From: Enterocloster lavalensis
GTDB lineage: Bacteria; Bacillota; Clostridia; Lachnospirales; Lachnospiraceae
Direction: 5' to 3'
Length of the DNA stretch: 64,000 nt
NCBI RefSeq assembly: GCF_902364025.1
Contig: NZ_CABJCG010000014.1
Coordinates: forward strand, 94,442-158,441
Shown piece by piece: positions 16,718-24,010 of this stretch (its first letter is position 1; every line of letters starts with the position of its first letter). The notes below the pieces were generated by a model. The model did no database searches. It saw only the letters and a list, made by a program, of their open reading frames with translations, and was not told the DNA's origin. A program made the translations under genes and the position numbers.

Positions 16718-16752
16718 TGTGGGAGGGGGAGGCGCTTGCTTTGTGTTACGGT

Positions 16753-16780
16753 CGCCTCCCGCTACTCCGTCCGGGCTACA
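16753..16780. repeat. 28-base direct repeat, left copy
   Basis: The 28 bases running from CGCCTCCCGC to CCGGGCTACA are repeated exactly at 18611-18638. The two copies bracket the AlbA_2 gene and the truncated gene upstream of it. Both copies are followed by a taggcca motif, here immediately and in the right copy 50 bases later, as if the left copy had lost the inner part. Confidence 0.8.
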
Positions 16781-16881: not shown

Positions 16882-18258
16882 TCAAGAAACTGATGAATAA
16901 TATCTTTGATTCCTATTTCTTGGCTGTTCAGGAATTGTCATCTTCAACAGCCCTTCCTCTATCATTTGGTTCATATAATGTCGTTTTAAGTAAGACCGAT
17001 TAGGAATACTAAACTTGTCCATTATTTCTTTTACTGTTTTCGGTTCTTTACAGAACAGTAAAATTTTATTTGTAATATCTTGCTCATTTTCTTGTCCATG
17101 TTCTTGTTCACTTTGTCCAAGAACTCCATTTAGCAGTTGCAAATAAGGATTACATGCTTTACATAAAACCATAATACCACTTTTTGATATCTCATACTCC
17201 GGCAATGGACCACCATAGGATTCACATGCCTCCCGTATCTTATCAAAGCCGCGCCCCCATGCCTCTATCAAGCCACTCTTAAAGAACACATTTGCCAATT
17301 TGGGGTTATATGGTTTTGATGAATGTTTCTGAAACAGCTTCTCAGTTGAATTAAATTCTTCTGGCATTTCACCATCATTCCAGATATACATTCGATCTTC
17401 ATAAATACTAATCTGTATTGGATTACAGCTACTATAGTCCTTATGAACAACAGCATTCAACAAAATCTCCCTTGTAGCGTTACGATGGAACATGAATTGC
17501 TCTATCCGCTGAATATCCCGATAGGTGATGAGAGCCTTCATATATTTGGTATAAATCAAGTCCAAAGCCTTATCCACCTGTTCAATCAGAGCGCCATGCA
17601 CTTCATCTTGATATTGCAGGTCAGAATCAGAATTTCCGAAAAAACCAATTTTAATATAGGAACCGGTCACCCATTTTTCAGGATCATCATAGAAAGCAAG
17701 CATAGCTGCCCTGGTGAGATAATCGTCATCGTCAAAAAGATGCAGATTTTCTAATAATACTTTGTCTGTGACTTTGGTTTCTTCATCCGTCAGCCTCCCC
17801 CTCTCAATAGCCTTTTTCTTAAAAAGCTTGATAGCCGATTGGCTTAAGTCATCGATTTTTAGCCTTGGTATCGGCATGCCATCCCATGTTCTTCCCTGAG
17901 ACTTTAAGATGGCCCTGTCCAATTCTTTCCCGGTTATCGTACGCATTGTACTCCCTGATCTATAAAAATACTTTCCATGATAACTAATGAGAGACGGGTA
18001 TTTATCTACAATAATCTCCAAATACTCTAAATCGCCCTCAAATCGAAGATTTACATCTACAACGATTCCCATTGTATCTGTCACTTGGCTCGGTATCTTC
18101 TCCAGTAACTTTTTAGAATCCTTAATGCCCTTTATATGTCCAAGATCATCCATACCAATGTATAAAATTCCACCATTAGCATTTGCATAGCCACAAATCC
18201 ATTCCAAATATTCGTTATGCCATGATTCTTTCCACTCGATTGTCTGATGCTCCGGCAT
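16882..18258 (-). CDS. AlbA_2 (Schlafen-type) domain protein with HATPase_c_4 region
   Basis: A 458-residue protein of the class often called RecG-like ATP-binding or putative transcriptional regulator. Residues 1-115 form an AlbA_2 domain (TIEWKESWHNEYLEWICGYANANGGILYIG, then YRSGSTMRT). Residues about 230-370 form the ATPase-like region with REILLNAVVHKDYS and the SGLIEAWGRGFDKI motif. The C-terminus has a winged-helix-like segment (EPKTVKEIMDKF). GGGAGG precedes the ATG. It is bracketed by a 28-bp direct repeat, which together with lower-GC codon choice suggests acquisition. Its target genes are unknown. Confidence 0.88.
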   Translation of the reverse strand: MPEHQTIEWKESWHNEYLEWICGYANANGGILYIGMDDLGHIKGIKDSKKLLEKIPSQVTDTMGIVVDVNLRFEGDLEYLEIIVDKYPSLISYHGKYFYRSGSTMRTITGKELDRAILKSQGRTWDGMPIPRLKIDDLSQSAIKLFKKKAIERGRLTDEETKVTDKVLLENLHLFDDDDYLTRAAMLAFYDDPEKWVTGSYIKIGFFGNSDSDLQYQDEVHGALIEQVDKALDLIYTKYMKALITYRDIQRIEQFMFHRNATREILLNAVVHKDYSSCNPIQISIYEDRMYIWNDGEMPEEFNSTEKLFQKHSSKPYNPKLANVFFKSGLIEAWGRGFDKIREACESYGGPLPEYEISKSGIMVLCKACNPYLQLLNGVLGQSEQEHGQENEQDITNKILLFCKEPKTVKEIMDKFSIPNRSYLKRHYMNQMIEEGLLKMTIPEQPRNRNQRYYSSVS

Positions 18259-18466: not shown

Positions 18467-18610
18467 CCTGTCTCCTCCTCAGAATATTTTCTTGAGTAAA
18501 ATAGATCAATACAAAGCAATTTTCAAAACATTAATCATATTATACCCTAAATTATCAACAAATTCCATATTATCTTAGACAAGTCATCTAAAAACAGAAG
18601 AGTGATTTTT

Positions 18611-18638
18611 CGCCTCCCGCTACTCCGTCCGGGCTACA
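18611..18638. repeat. 28-base direct repeat, right copy, start of a palindromic element
   Basis: Identical to 16753-16780. It continues into GC-rich foldable sequence up to about 18690, including a TGCGGC-TTTC-GCCGCA hairpin, so it resembles a REP- or MITE-like structured intergenic element rather than a simple duplication. Confidence 0.75.
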
Positions 18639-18761: not shown

Positions 18762-20084
18762 TCAATGCTCGAGCATGTTTTCAATCAATATCCCATACCC
18801 CCTGGTGCTATCCTGCAAAAACACATGGGTCACTGCTCCGGCCAGCTTTCCATCCTGTATAATCGGACTCCCGCTCATCCCCTGCACGATTCCCCCCGTC
18901 AGCGCGATCAGATCCGGGTCGGTTACTTTAATTACCATACTTTTATTCTTATGCCCTGAGTTATAATCTACCTTCTGTATTTCGATATCGTAATCCCTCA
19001 GCTCCCCCGACACGCTGCTCCTGATGGTTGCAGGCCCGGGCTTTACGTCCTGGCGGCAGGCGATCTCCATGGCGCCCTCCGGCAGGCCGGAGTCGTTTAC
19101 AGTTCCTTTGACCATGGCTTCCATTCCGGTCTGGCGCAGAAAGGCTTCGTTTACAGTTCCGAATATTCCCTCGTTTGTGTTCTGATTGATCTCCCCCATC
19201 AGCGAGCCCGGTCCGTAATAGATCACACCGGACAGCAGCCCCGGCTTTCCAATGGTCCCCTTCTCAATTCCCATAATCTGGGTGGTATACAGTTCCCCCT
19301 TGCTGGTCTCCACCAGGTCGCCGGTGTCGCTGTCGCTGATTCCATGCCCCAGCGCGCCGAAGTTTCCGTTTAAGTCCAGGTATGTGACGGTGCCGATTCC
19401 CTGGGTGTCGTCCCGCACCCAGGCGCCCAGCTTGTACTGTCCGTCCTCGGTTTTGACGGGGTTCACGCTGACGTCCACCTGCTCGCCGCCCCGGCGGACT
19501 GAGACCACCGCAGCCTCGCCGCCCGTCTTGTTCACCGCGTCCATAAGGTCTTCCTTGGTGTTCATGGGCTTTCCGTTGAACGCTTCAATGTAATCGCCTG
19601 ATTTCAAAATACCGTAGGCCGGTTCCACCTCCATGCCGTCCGCCGCCGTCAGCTTTCCGGTACCGATGACCATAATTCCGTCGGATTTCAGATAGATTCC
19701 GATGGGACATCCGCAGGGCACCGCATAGCGGGTGTCCACTACGTCCACCTGGATGTCCTTGAACTTGATCAGGCCGAAAAGCTTCAGCCCGACCTGATAG
19801 GATCCCTGGTTTTCGGCGTACATGGAAAATGGCTGCCTCCCGTTCACCGTGATCTGGTCGGCGGGTATGTTGCTCTTGTTTCCCAGCACCACTTCCTCAC
19901 TCTCACTGGATAAGGTTGTGTTGATGGGAAGCGGGAACGAAAACTGCTCCTTCTGGTCCTGGACAATGCTGATCCGGTCCGGGATGGCAGTGTCTAAGTA
20001 GTACCAGGAATATCCAACGGTGACGGTGAGCGCCGCCCAGAAAATACGGTTCAGCCACCGGTAAAACGTCTTATTTCCTCTCAT
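18762..20084 (-). CDS. spoIVB: SpoIVB serine peptidase, sporulation signalling
   Basis: A 440-residue S55-family protease made in the forespore and secreted into the intermembrane space, where it triggers pro-sigma-K processing by cleaving SpoIVFA. It has an N-terminal membrane anchor (about residues 12-30), a PDZ domain around residues 125-210 (GILKSGDYIEAFNGKPM), catalytic His about 247 in GALGHGISD and Ser about 404 in GGIVQGMSGSPI, and the end motif STRGYGILIENML. I start at 20084, where gaggaggtaag precedes the ATG; the longer frame to 20195 lacks such a site. Confidence 0.95.
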   Translation of the reverse strand: MRGNKTFYRWLNRIFWAALTVTVGYSWYYLDTAIPDRISIVQDQKEQFSFPLPINTTLSSESEEVVLGNKSNIPADQITVNGRQPFSMYAENQGSYQVGLKLFGLIKFKDIQVDVVDTRYAVPCGCPIGIYLKSDGIMVIGTGKLTAADGMEVEPAYGILKSGDYIEAFNGKPMNTKEDLMDAVNKTGGEAAVVSVRRGGEQVDVSVNPVKTEDGQYKLGAWVRDDTQGIGTVTYLDLNGNFGALGHGISDSDTGDLVETSKGELYTTQIMGIEKGTIGKPGLLSGVIYYGPGSLMGEINQNTNEGIFGTVNEAFLRQTGMEAMVKGTVNDSGLPEGAMEIACRQDVKPGPATIRSSVSGELRDYDIEIQKVDYNSGHKNKSMVIKVTDPDLIALTGGIVQGMSGSPIIQDGKLAGAVTHVFLQDSTRGYGILIENMLEH

Positions 20085-20192
20085 GTTCTTACCTCCTCGT
20101 CTTGTATTTTGTTGATTTTCACAGGGCGAGGCACCCATCGGCTCCTGGAATGCTGCAATCCTCCCCGGGCTGCGCCAGCGGTCCATTACAGT

Positions 20193-20231
20193 CAAAAAAA
20201 GAAAGAAGCCGGTGTTTTGTGCCTCTTTCTT
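20193..20231 (-). terminator. Terminator of the switch-controlled unknown gene
   Basis: On the minus strand an 11-base stem (left arm at 20231-20221, right arm at 20210-20200) with a 10-base loop is followed by a run of seven or eight T. It lies about 90 bases past the stop of the gene at 20323 and insulates spoIVB from it. Confidence 0.85.
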
Positions 20232-20322
20232 AGTATGATCTGATCTTCTGTTTTCAATCTGTTTTATTTTGTCCCGTCTGCCAAATCCTTCATTCGTACA
20301 ATATTTTTTCGCGCCTGCGGCT

Positions 20323-20934
20323 TTAATCCGAATTTTTAAAAATTTTCAAACGGTCCTCCCCTTCCCGGTCCCCTCCGTCCGGCTGACCGCCTCCCCCGCC
20401 GGTCAGCCGCTTCCTCGGCCCCTTCTCCCTCAGACCTGCATCCACCTCTGCCAGCATCCGCATGAGCTCCAGGGCGCTGCGGAAGGAGACGTAATATTGG
20501 CTGGAAAAGCTGGTGTGCAGACGCCCCTGCATGGAGGCGTGCTGCCTGTAAAGCACATGGATGATCAGAACTTCCTCGGCCTGCGCCGTATAAGCCAGCC
20601 GCTTCTGAATCGGCATGGCCATTTGATCCGGGCTGTTTTGCGTTCCCGCCTCCTGCCGCATCGACAGCTTCTGGTACCGCTCCGCCTCCGCGCGGCTCAA
20701 AAAGCGGGGTTCCATGGTGCGCATGGGCGCGCCGATCCGCTCGCAGACCTCATCCACCCCGAGCACCAGCTCATGAATCCCCGTAAAATGGATGGGGACC
20801 GGCAGGCAGTAGTTTACAATCACCCCGTACGGCCGGTTCTCCTGGTATCCGTTGATGCAGACCAGCATGATACTCGCGTCGTTTGTATTGATTCGTGTTT
20901 CCTTATCATCTCCAGGTATGTGATCCCTAAACAT
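20323..20934 (-). CDS. Unknown protein downstream of the invertible promoter
   Basis: A 203-residue protein that I do not recognise. Its N-terminal half is ordered-looking (DASIMLVCINGYQENRPYG, then HFTGIHELVLGVDEVCERIG), the middle is charged and helical (RFLSRAEAERYQ), and the last 35 residues are low-complexity Gly/Arg/Asp. No signal peptide or membrane helix is seen, so it is probably cytosolic. The start at 20934 is chosen because aagggag precedes it; the frame runs on to 21171 only through the inverted repeat. It lies next to a recombinase and a promoter-bearing invertible segment that currently faces away, so it is probably phase-variable and OFF here. Confidence 0.75.
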   Translation of the reverse strand: MFRDHIPGDDKETRINTNDASIMLVCINGYQENRPYGVIVNYCLPVPIHFTGIHELVLGVDEVCERIGAPMRTMEPRFLSRAEAERYQKLSMRQEAGTQNSPDQMAMPIQKRLAYTAQAEEVLIIHVLYRQHASMQGRLHTSFSSQYYVSFRSALELMRMLAEVDAGLREKGPRKRLTGGGGGQPDGGDREGEDRLKIFKNSD

Positions 20935-21012
20935 AATTCTCCCTTCCTGTATGGTAAAATGCCGCCTGCGCCCATGCTCCGCTCCACCCCGAATTCTCCC
21001 CCTCCCTTTATT

Positions 21013-21038
21013 TACAACGCAATATCTATTTTGTTGTA
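21013..21038 (+). repeat. Inverted repeat left, recombinase site candidate
   Basis: A 26-base sequence beginning TACAACGCAATATC and ending TTTTGTTGTA. Its exact reverse complement is at 21297-21322. The repeat itself has TACAAC/GTTGTA inverted ends around a 14-base centre, the layout of a tyrosine-recombinase core site. Confidence 0.93.
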
Positions 21039-21173
21039 ACCGAACGGCCAAAGGACCTTTCGAGAACGGCCTCGTTTCCGCCCGTCTCCGCCGTTTTCCC
21101 CTCCCTTTGGAAAAACTTCCGGAATTTTCCGGATAAAATCTGCCAAAAAAGCCCATTTTCAGGGACGCCAAAT

Positions 21174-21209
21174 AATCAGGCCTGAAGCCGGATGAAGCCA
21201 GGTCTGATT
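21174..21209. terminator. Hairpin inside the invertible segment
   Basis: AATCAGGCCTG (21174-21184) pairs with CAGGTCTGATT (21199-21209), with one G-T pair and a 14-base loop. No T-run follows directly. It may block read-through from the recombinase gene into the unknown gene, or serve as a recognition structure. Confidence 0.45.
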
Positions 21210-21235
21210 GGCATGTCCATAATGGCGGAAACCGG

Positions 21236-21264
21236 TGGAAATCTATGTAAAAATGTGATATAGT
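21236..21264 (+). promoter_or_regulatory. Promoter carried by the invertible segment
   Basis: TATAGT at 21259-21264 is preceded by TGA, giving an extended -10 (TGATATAGT), with TGGAAA 17 bases upstream at 21236-21241. In this orientation it reads right, antisense to the 3' end of the recombinase gene. Confidence 0.6.
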
Positions 21265-21274
21265 ATGAAATGAT

Positions 21275-22177
21275 TTACCGCGTCCATGATTCTGAATACA
21301 ACAAAATAGATATTGCGTTGTACGGCGTCACAATGAGTCTCATACTTTCCAGCTGTTTTCTGTGTCTGCTCCCGCTCTCAATGGTATAAATGCGGGTCGT
21401 ATTGATATCCTTATGGCCCAATATATCCGCCAGCTTTGACAGGTCCTTGGTCATTGCGTAGTAGGTCCTGGCAAATAAATGCCTCAGGTTGTGGGGAAAT
21501 ATTTTCTCACGGTCCACGTTGGCTTTCAGGCCCAGCGCCTTCATCTCCCGCCAGATATTACTCCGGTCCAGCGCCTTTCCGCTTCTTGTCACAAAGATCA
21601 TTCCGCTCTCAATCCCCTTCCTGGCAGCGTAATCCAGCAGGATTTTGCAGAGCCTTTTTGTCAGCAGCACCGTCCGGATCCTGCCCTTGCACTCCACCTC
21701 CGCCTGCCCCTTGCAGAGCGCCGCCACCGTGATAAACGGCAGCTCCGACACGCGGATTCCGCTGGAGCAGATGGTCTCAAGCAACAGGGAAAGCCGTTCG
21801 TTTCCCTGGTCCGCAGCCGTTCTCACCAGGCGGAGATATTCTTTTTTTGTGAGCTCCCGGCTTTCGGGATAAAAAGTATTTTTGCTGATTTTCAGGAATC
21901 TGGCCCTGCAATCCTGCCAATCGCAGTATTTGAAAAAGCCGTTCAGCGCGGCCAGGGCTCCGTTAACGGTCACAGGCGCCAGATTTTCGCGCAAAACGCT
22001 TTTCCAGAGAATCACCATCTCCTTGTCCACCGGCCTGCAGTCCATGAACTCTTTGAAACGGGTCAGGTAATATTCATATTTTTGAATCGTCTCCCTGCTC
22101 CGCTCGCAGCGGTCCAGCCATAAACAATAGTCGTCGATTTTCTGTGTTGTGATGATTCTCTTCTGATTGTCTTTCAT
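21275..22177 (-). CDS. Tyrosine recombinase (XerC/D-like), probable invertase of the adjacent segment
   Basis: A 300-residue site-specific recombinase. The N-terminal SAM-like core-binding domain spans residues about 10-90. The catalytic domain carries R142 (SSGIRVSEL), a beta-hairpin Lys near 164, H229 and R232 (HNLRH), H255 (LGHKDINTTRIYT) and nucleophile Y264, so it is complete. caggaggccgct precedes the ATG. Residues 286-294 are encoded by the right inverted repeat and the last six by the invertible segment; in the flipped state the frame would stop right after residue 293. Terminators isolate it from recN. Confidence 0.93.
   Translation of the reverse strand: MKDNQKRIITTQKIDDYCLWLDRCERSRETIQKYEYYLTRFKEFMDCRPVDKEMVILWKSVLRENLAPVTVNGALAALNGFFKYCDWQDCRARFLKISKNTFYPESRELTKKEYLRLVRTAADQGNERLSLLLETICSSGIRVSELPFITVAALCKGQAEVECKGRIRTVLLTKRLCKILLDYAARKGIESGMIFVTRSGKALDRSNIWREMKALGLKANVDREKIFPHNLRHLFARTYYAMTKDLSKLADILGHKDINTTRIYTIESGSRHRKQLESMRLIVTPYNAISILLYSESWTR
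21297..21322 (-). repeat. Inverted repeat right, recombinase site candidate
   Basis: Exact reverse complement of 21013-21038 over all 26 bases. It lies within the last codons of the recombinase gene, so site and enzyme are physically linked. Confidence 0.93.
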
Positions 22178-22282
22178 AGCGGCCTCCTGATGTGTTGATG
22201 TCCTGTATTCTGTCCCGATAAGCCAAAAGCATTCTTCATCTCTCTAACGCGCTTTCAAATAGAAGTTCTCCCAACAACGCAA

Positions 22283-22319
22283 AAAAGATGCCCAATTTTA
22301 TCAAAAATGAGCATCTTTT
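22283..22319 (-). terminator. Terminator of the nusB-recN operon
   Basis: AAAAGATGC/GCATCTTTT arms (22283-22291 and 22311-22319) form a stem that on the minus strand is followed by six T. It lies just downstream of the recN stop. Confidence 0.85.
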
Positions 22320-22351
22320 AACGATTCTTGTCTTTTTTATGATAGCTTTTC

Positions 22352-24010
22352 TTATTTTGTGCTGTCCGCCAGATCCTTCATCTCCCGGGCATTTTTCAGC
22401 ACCGCGTCGGTGATCTTCGCGCCGCCCAAAAGCCTGGCCAGCTCCTGCACGGATTCCTCTGGCCCCAGGGCGCGGATGGTGGTGGCGGTGCGCCCCTCGG
22501 CCGCGGATTTGGCGATCTCGAAATGGCAGTCCGCCATGGCTGCGATCTGGGGCAGGTGGGTGATACAGATCACCTGGTGGGTCCTTCCGATATAGGAGAG
22601 CTTCTCCGACACCTTCTGGGCCGTGCGCCCGCTGATGCCGGTGTCGATCTCGTCGAATATCAGGGTGGGAATGTCGTCGGTGTCCGCCAGCACGGTCTTA
22701 ATGGCCAGCATGATCCGCGAGAGCTCGCCGCCCGACGCCACGTCGCCCAGGGGCTTTTCCGGCTCTCCGGGGTTGGTGGAGATCAGAAACTGGGCCTCGT
22801 CGTACCCCTGGGCCGTGTAGTGGTCCAGCCTGGAAAATTCCATGGAAAAGGTCACGTCCAGAAAGTTCAAATCCAGCAGGCCCTTGCGGATGCTCTCCGT
22901 CAGCTTCCGGGAGGCGGACTTTCTCACCTGGGACAGCTGGCCGCAGAGAGCTTCCAATTCCTGCTCCGTCTTTTTAAGCTCCCGCTCCGCCCCGGCTTTG
23001 CGTTCCTCGAAATTCTCCAGCTCGTCCAGCCGCTGCTTCTTCTCTTCCAGTTTCCGGAAAATGGCTTCCACCGTATTGCCGTATTTTGCCTGGAGGCCGT
23101 GAATCAGGTCCAGGCGCTCCTCCACCTCCCGGAAACGCTCCTCGTCCAGCTCCATGTGTTCCAGATAGGCGGCCGTCTCCCGGCCCGCGTCGCTCAATAT
23201 GGATTCCGCGTCGTAGAGCTGGTCCCGGATTCCGTTTAAGGATTCGTCGTAAGCGCAGGCCTGGTCCACCTCCTGAAGCGCCCGGGACAGCCAGTCCCCC
23301 TCCAGGGCCTGCTGCACGGCGGATAGGTTCTCTGCAATGCGGCGGCTGTGGCTGATCCGGCGGTACAGGGCCGTCAGCTCCTCCTCCTCGCCCTCCCGGA
23401 TTCCCGCGGCCTCGATCTCGTCGATCTCAAAGCGCAGGAAATCCTTCTCGCGGATACGGCTCTCCTCGTCAACTCCAAATTTTTCCAGTTTCTCCCGGAG
23501 GGCCCGGTAAGCCTCGTAGGTTTTCGCCGTCTTTTCTTTTAAAGGCTGGGTTTTTCCCCTGACATAGGCGTCCAGAATCGCGAGATGTTTGGATTTGTAC
23601 AGAAGGGACTGGTGCTCGTGCTGGCCGTGGATATCGATCAGCAGGCCGGTGATCTGCTTCAGCCTGGCCGTGGTCACGGTCTCGTCGTTGATCCGGCTGA
23701 CGCTGCGGTTGGGCATGATTTTCCGGGAGATGATGAACAGGCCGTTCTCGTCCGGCACCGCCTCCAGGGCGGCCAGGGCCTTCAACTTCTCCGGAGAATC
23801 CACGGAGAATACAAGCTCCACGTAGGCGTAGGGCGCGCCCTGGCGGATGCTGTCCCGGGACGCCTTGCCGCCGAGGGCCATACCCACGGAGCCGATGATG
23901 ATGGATTTACCGGCGCCCGTCTCGCCGGTGAGAATGTTTAAGCCCTGACGGAACTCCACATCCGCTTTCTCGATCAGGGCCAGGTTCTTCACATGCAATT
24001 CCAGTAACAT
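22352..24010 (-). CDS. recN: DNA repair protein RecN
   Basis: A 552-residue SMC-like ATPase acting early in double-strand break repair. Walker A is LTGETGAGKSIIIGS near residue 30, the central region is coiled coil, and the C-terminal block holds DVASGGELSRIMLAIK (signature), LIFDEIDTGISG (Walker B) and CITHLPQIAAMAD. It is the last gene of the operon, after argR, the usual order in Firmicutes. No SOS box was seen directly upstream. Confidence 0.96.
   Translation of the reverse strand: MLLELHVKNLALIEKADVEFRQGLNILTGETGAGKSIIIGSVGMALGGKASRDSIRQGAPYAYVELVFSVDSPEKLKALAALEAVPDENGLFIISRKIMPNRSVSRINDETVTTARLKQITGLLIDIHGQHEHQSLLYKSKHLAILDAYVRGKTQPLKEKTAKTYEAYRALREKLEKFGVDEESRIREKDFLRFEIDEIEAAGIREGEEEELTALYRRISHSRRIAENLSAVQQALEGDWLSRALQEVDQACAYDESLNGIRDQLYDAESILSDAGRETAAYLEHMELDEERFREVEERLDLIHGLQAKYGNTVEAIFRKLEEKKQRLDELENFEERKAGAERELKKTEQELEALCGQLSQVRKSASRKLTESIRKGLLDLNFLDVTFSMEFSRLDHYTAQGYDEAQFLISTNPGEPEKPLGDVASGGELSRIMLAIKTVLADTDDIPTLIFDEIDTGISGRTAQKVSEKLSYIGRTHQVICITHLPQIAAMADCHFEIAKSAAEGRTATTIRALGPEESVQELARLLGGAKITDAVLKNAREMKDLADSTK

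Follow-up and report, generated by a model that had tools for sequence, protein, structure and literature searches.

Between recN (22352-24010) and spoIVB (18762-20195) in a 64,000-nucleotide stretch of Enterocloster lavalensis DNA (hereafter the window, meaning that stretch at its full length) lie two minus-strand genes, and the question that they raise is whether the recombinase encoded by one of them inverts a promoter that controls the other. Our answer, to which we assign a probability of roughly 0.88, is that the locus is a self-contained phase-variation module in which the recombinase flips a promoter segment controlling the gene at 20323-20934. The parts of the module, in window positions, are:

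20323-20934, minus strand: target gene, here called P2, 203 aa, unnamed family, no Pfam, NCBIfam or PHROGs match at E 0.001
21013-21038, plus strand: left recombination site, the first inverted repeat copy, upstream of the target gene; it matches 21297-21322 in inverted form at 26/26 positions
21039-21296, no strand: putative invertible segment, 258 bp, bounded by both sites
21118-21133, minus strand: terminator-like hairpin facing the target gene in the assembled orientation; weak evidence, not above shuffle expectation
21236-21264, plus strand: predicted promoter (TGGAAA-17-TATAGT, TG before), pointing right to the recombinase 3' end (target OFF)
21275-22177, minus strand: tyrosine recombinase gene, 300 aa (PF00589, 6.2e-24)
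21297-21322, minus strand: right recombination site, inverted repeat copy 2, also the C-terminal codons of the recombinase (YNAISILL)

The inverted repeats and the recombinase gene

A sequence-only reading of this DNA had described a pair of exact inverted 26-base copies enclosing 258 bases, and the description held: the copies are complementary at 26/26 positions and lie 258 nt apart. With up to 3 mismatches allowed, the 26-mer occurred twice in the window vs a mean of 0 in 100 shuffles, and the nearest genome (G001; 6.35 Mb) contains exactly two exact copies of the site. The recombinase matched the Phage_integrase domain, and the residues from which the same reading had called it complete (R142, H229, R232, H255 and Y264) were confirmed and are invariant in the window protein and six close relatives, as is K164. 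Two constituents of a tyrosine-recombinase promoter switch, an intact recombinase with its catalytic residues and two inverted copies of one recombination site, are present. Comparison with G001 gave dN/dS values of 0.14 for the recombinase, 0.28 for P2 and 0.046 for spoIVB; judged by these ratios, the recombinase and P2 are both under purifying selection.

The right repeat lies inside the last codons of 21275-22177, as the claimed overlap between gene and repeat had it. In the assembled orientation the C-terminus reads YNAISILL and then YSESWTR, and translation of the left copy together with its next base yields YNAISILL-stop, which is the recombinase end after inversion. A flip would alter only the last residues of the recombinase (YNAISILLYSESWTR in the assembled state, YNAISILL in the other), so that the enzyme core would be untouched in both states. 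In eight relatives (L004, L005, L014, L015, L027, L028, L030 and L031) the gene end, and the repeat itself, is YNRIPLLL-stop or YNGIPLLL-stop. Of the 76 loci with a repeat (see below), 36 have it beginning before the stop codon ends, and in the remainder its start lies at most 80 bases beyond that of the stop codon. Within the parts of the literature searched, we found no description of any recombinase gene whose end is also its target site. One relative carries extra partial site copies within the recombinase 3' end (L024:987-1346), with which more than one segment could flip there.

The predicted promoter and the proposed switch

The rightward extended -10 promoter proposed earlier was recovered as a plus-strand match at 21236-21264 (TGGAAA, 17 nt, TATAGT, with TG); it is a modest match (9/12), and the scanned region has 5 promoter-like matches vs 2.1 expected. 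The predicted promoter of G001 points in the same direction. At the scan threshold there were 0 minus-strand matches from the recombinase start to the target gene, in line with the claim that no promoter competes. The further claim that hairpins insulate the target found no support in this copy, since terminator-like hairpins in the scanned region were no more numerous than in shuffles (3 found vs 3.1 expected), with z of -0.94 for 21095-21150 around the hairpin at 21118-21133, and since the hairpin near 21163-21218, though large, lacks a T run and scores only modestly (z -2.49, -1.95). Segments of three relatives (L004, L005 and L014) hold a long symmetric hairpin with z from -6.05 to -7.67, compared to which the window hairpins are weaker.

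We propose that the recombinase encoded at 21275-22177 would recombine the two 26-bp sites and thereby invert the 258-bp segment. In the assembled orientation the promoter would read right across the recombinase 3' end with 20323-20934 OFF; after inversion it would adjoin the left site and read into 20323-20934, turning it ON. We infer that the window copy does flip and that promoter direction sets expression of 20323-20934, OFF now and ON after inversion; the promoter in its OFF direction would also make antisense RNA to the recombinase.

Recurrence of the layout in relatives

A scan in which each species was represented by a single genome gave at least 568 recombinase relatives, and the best 80 of these, the window and nine loci from a search with P2 made up the 90 loci examined. 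An inverted repeat started near the recombinase stop in 76/90; among the 14 without it, 10 end fewer than 600 bases past the stop and four have full flank (L074, L082, L101 and L105). When counting was confined to assessable loci, i.e., those with at least 600 bases beyond the recombinase stop, the repeat was found in 75/79 (window included) vs 6/790 random windows of the same loci, with a median repeat spacing of 233 bp; a few, among them L062, L064 and L066, are near-identical to one another. In a second set of 30 loci, some of which repeat earlier ones, 20 had the repeat, and those without it were a truncated one (L172), two with recombinases at 41-45% identity (L180 and L181) and the seven whose recombinases are the most distant (26-30% identity).

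A tree was built of 108 recombinases, of which 95 have the repeat and 13 do not, with 11 truncated ones left out; it is midpoint-drawn and has long branches. One supported branch (96/97) parts 101 rows from the seven distant ones. All 95 repeat-bearing recombinases fall within the 101-row group, and the seven rows outside it have no repeat. Six rows inside the group have no detected repeat, so the repeat label needs six changes on the tree.

Past the segment, the next gene shares the strand of the recombinase in 65/72 loci and lies on the other strand in 7/72 (four more loci had too little flank). We scanned the first gene behind 55 other switches, chosen from the 80 loci for an open frame after the segment, and these downstream genes varied: List_Bact_rpt and GGDEF were the commonest (5 each), followed by LRR_5 and divergent InlB B-repeat (4 each), then SLH, SpaA, Band_7 and Peptidase_A24 (3 each). 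Matches from a PADLOC scan of these 55 were scattered and mostly in single members. At one locus (L052:4851-5400) a 508-bp switch contains a second, 48-bp inverted repeat.

Orientation of the segments

We turned all loci so that the recombinase reads left to right and then aligned the segments. Homologous segments lay in opposite orientations in L004/L005 (82% over 130 nt), L021/L025 (89% over 120 nt) and L047/L068 (81% over 160 nt), and weaker segment pairs are also opposite between species. Both orientations thus occur among the relatives, and the window copy and G001 show one; the G001 module has the same orientation as the window and a segment of 205 bp, which is 53 bp shorter.

A simple sigma-A scan of 76 segments gave a mean best score of 11.31 vs 9.79 (sd 0.74) in mononucleotide shuffles, which kept base composition only. 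The better promoter points toward the recombinase (OFF) in 57 segments and toward the target (ON) in 14, with 5 unclear; the window and G001 were both called OFF. Promoter direction agreed with relative segment orientation in 46/46 clear pairs (29 same, 17 inverted) out of 48 segment pairs that align at E 1e-4, two being left out for an unclear promoter call; these are not independent pairs, and wherever the promoter falls within the aligned stretch the two would be expected to agree. The central claim of the sequence-only reading, an invertible promoter next to its own recombinase, is supported by the recurrent layout (75/79), the inversion of segments between species and the promoter direction (46/46).

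The recombination site

A clear dyad with the consensus TACAACATAATTTCTATTATGTTGTA was present in 64/76 loci, with six positions (C, AA, TT and G) invariant, and the left site of the window fits this class consensus at all six. Both copies share their central six bases in 63/64 loci, an equality partly guaranteed by the selection of inverted repeats; these bases are of 43 kinds, are common to 33/2016 locus pairs and are never palindromic. An equal, non-palindromic centre is what strand exchange by a tyrosine recombinase needs. We also scanned the genus genomes with a degenerate pattern for the commoner form of the site, which does not match the window's own variant, and obtained 18 rows in 6/17 genomes and 0 for the reversed control. 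Twelve of the 18 make up six inverted pairs with a spacing of about 240 bp, and all 18 are within about 300 bp of a recombinase.

The target gene

A AGGAAGGGAG stretch, a likely ribosome-binding site, precedes the ATG of P2. That the controlled gene is of an unrecognised type, as had been stated, was borne out by the Pfam, NCBIfam and PHROGs searches. P2-like proteins occur in 11/98 relatives' genomes; the first protein search returned 32 and an alignment search 93, which are without any listed Pfam domain and, where named, are called 'hypothetical'. Comparison of P2 with plasmid sequences gave no match. Structure prediction gave two halves, each of three strands and a helix, and among the solved structures compared with it there was no convincing match.

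A recombinase of the same kind lies near P2 in 10/25 P2 loci (within a flank of about 1.5 kb; two of the genes are counted twice or in pieces). In the window P2 stands alone, as a strong terminator-like hairpin and spoIVB come next. We surveyed the neighbours of ten chosen proteins. Where P2 occurs with a switch, L148 has a BTAD regulator and a 1705-aa Cna_B protein nearby, L154 has CpsB/CapC, Wzz and a P-loop ATPase, and L144 has a protein of at least 1755 aa with no match above the cut-off; where it occurs without one, L143 has a 1478-aa protein with InlB-type repeats and an O-antigen-ligase-type protein, L150 a sugar transferase and L149 a GGDEF-EAL protein. Because relatives adjoin adhesin, BTAD-regulator and polysaccharide genes, P2 may, by association, serve a surface-related accessory or regulatory role. 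P2 as the gene behind all such switches was considered and rejected, since a profile found it in 1/80 genome-contig loci.

Two further P2 observations concern local arrangement. At L154:4005-8076 a distant relative of the switch stands ahead of the P2-like gene and the genes for CpsB/CapC, Wzz and the P-loop ATPase, an arrangement like that of polysaccharide operons, and a similar CpsB-like gene was seen by eye behind the switch of L183. In another genome (G032:C35; L018/L022) a P2-like gene sits within a perfect inverted duplication of 1138 bp whose arms are 232 bp apart; this could be real or an assembly artefact.

These data bear on what the switch controls. An unlikely alternative is that the sites are real and the output is the recombinase itself, with antisense RNA tuning the switching rate and 20323-20934 a passenger. 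Such tuning would agree with the repeat near the recombinase stop in 75/79 loci and with promoters that mostly point back over the recombinase (57/76), but in 65/72 assessable loci the next gene shares the strand of the recombinase, surface and signalling families are the commonest among the 55 scanned next genes, and P2 shares 10/25 loci with such a recombinase and is, by its dN/dS, under purifying selection.

The shared orientation of window and G001 (both OFF), together with a G001 segment that is 53 bp shorter, could also mean that the module flipped once and is now a relic fixed OFF in this lineage. We regard this as quite improbable: the two genomes differ by about 5% in the surrounding DNA, yet their sites match at 26/26 positions within and between them, and the recombinase has a dN/dS of 0.14 and intact catalytic residues.

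Insertion of the module between recN and spoIVB

Among 17 same-genus genomes, recN and spoIVB are adjacent with an empty gap in 15; the remaining two are G001, which has the module, and one whose contig ends too early. Three features of the window lie beside the two genes of the module:

20197-20233, minus strand: hairpin with a T run after the target gene, probable terminator (-15.4 kcal/mol, z -5.65)
20264-20296, minus strand: insertion scar, formed by a displaced copy of the recN 3' end; 26/33 bases equal to 22352-22384
22283-22319, minus strand: hairpin after recN, probable terminator parting recN from the module (-17.7 kcal/mol, z -5.40)

The recN end and its displaced copy are the only two window places with 24 or more of 33 bases matching. 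The displaced end, on the P2 side of the module, runs on into ancestral intergenic sequence, and the hairpin at 20197-20233 is the element that relatives carry in the gap between recN and spoIVB. Since the recN end is duplicated beyond the module, the module was inserted at the recN 3' end. That the recombinase is simply the integrase that put the 2.1-kb module there, with the repeats as arm sites and no switch, would account for the duplicated recN end on the far side and for the empty gap in 15/17 genomes, but we hold it to be very unlikely because the relatives' segments are inverted between species, their recombinases have differing neighbours and the recN end is, by eye, unlike the site.

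Other repeats were seen in this region. Four other genomes of the genus (L155-L158, from G016, G013, G009 and G011) carry a second copy of the final ~37 spoIVB codons at a distance of about 1.5 to 12.5 kb downstream of the gene; the DNA between the spoIVB repeats in G009 and G013 resembles, by eye, what we take to be type I-C cas genes. The recN-spoIVB region resembles a hotspot for insertion in which gene 3' ends are duplicated. In the window, a perfect 29-base direct repeat (16752-16780 and 18610-18638) lies around an AlbA_2/HATPase_c_4/Fic-like_C gene (16882-18258) next to spoIVB, so this gene appears as if it were inserted too.

A viral or plasmid origin of the module was considered and is not supported: the IMG/VR scan gave 9 recombinase relatives at 22-40% identity, and the matches of the recombinase to plasmid records (329) and phage records (51) all stayed below 60% identity. 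One unannotated 10-kb record of human-faecal origin (MT836497.1, 'Bacteriophage sp.') has a 44.6% match to the recombinase. An Rfam search at E 1 over 20000-22500 gave no match.

Relation to known invertible promoters

A survey of a defined gut community reported an inverton group, 139, of 33 invertons, 32 of them from Clostridia, with a tyrosine recombinase of 'invertase group 35' nearby, and orientation shifts in cultures of Clostridium sp. D5 and Intestinimonas (PMC11892184). In two group 139 examples, going by figure legend coordinates, arms of 26 and 14 bp enclose 205 and 227 bp, the Clostridium sp. D5 example being the one with 26-bp arms and 205 bp between (PMC11892184). Our locus L080 is from Intestinimonas butyriciproducens. 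The module likewise lies in Clostridia, has a tyrosine recombinase within 5 kb and fits in size; it differs from what the consulted parts of that text describe, where we found no site sequence, no site in a recombinase 3' end and no P2 family. The module thus probably belongs to the group 139/invertase group 35 kind, an identity drawn from size and taxon as given in those parts. With a Clostridia inverton group and its tyrosine recombinase group already published, the module's kind is probably a known one.

The fim switch of Escherichia coli has the gene order fimE - fimS - fimA. Promoter reversal and the roles of FimB and FimE have been described (PMC2845655). As far as the consulted parts of that account go, the module resembles fim in that a recombinase gene adjoins an invertible promoter segment driving the gene beyond, with the OFF promoter pointing the opposite way. 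It differs in that fim has two recombinases of different direction bias, whereas one recombinase gene lies between recN and spoIVB here, and in that the site is inside the recombinase coding end. Antisense control of fimE has reportedly been observed, and antisense feedback on the present recombinase, if made, would resemble it.

A likeness to the RecV type of Clostridioides difficile had also been suggested. One RecV serves several unlinked switches, including flg and cwpV (PMC5386303). The flg and cwpV repeats are without recognisable identity and those switches act after transcription initiation, and the cmr and pdcB switches also hold a promoter (PMC5386303, PMC9286219). Going by these descriptions, as partly consulted, the mechanism fits, in that a clostridial tyrosine recombinase acts on short invertible regulatory segments; the resemblance may not extend beyond mechanism: RecV serves several unlinked switches, whereas the module has a neighbouring recombinase with a conserved site consensus and G001 has only two such sites, a count made at up to 3 mismatches, by which unlike sites would be missed, RecV sites differing strongly among themselves.

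Implications

We tentatively suggest that, in a clostridial clade in which the recombinase 3' end is or abuts the site, antisense RNA from the OFF promoter damps switching, and that the switched gene here is a travelling accessory or regulator of surface structures. If this is true, antisense damping would make the OFF state self-stabilising. The module itself would be a phase switch of defined extent, 2 kb long and with one recombinase; its site consensus is recognisable and its geometry fixed, so that such switches in gut Clostridia may be found from sequence and their state read from assemblies. Since the unnamed P2 family recurs by adhesin and polysaccharide genes, its role is directly testable, and the layout in which it is found here recurs in many other gut Clostridia.
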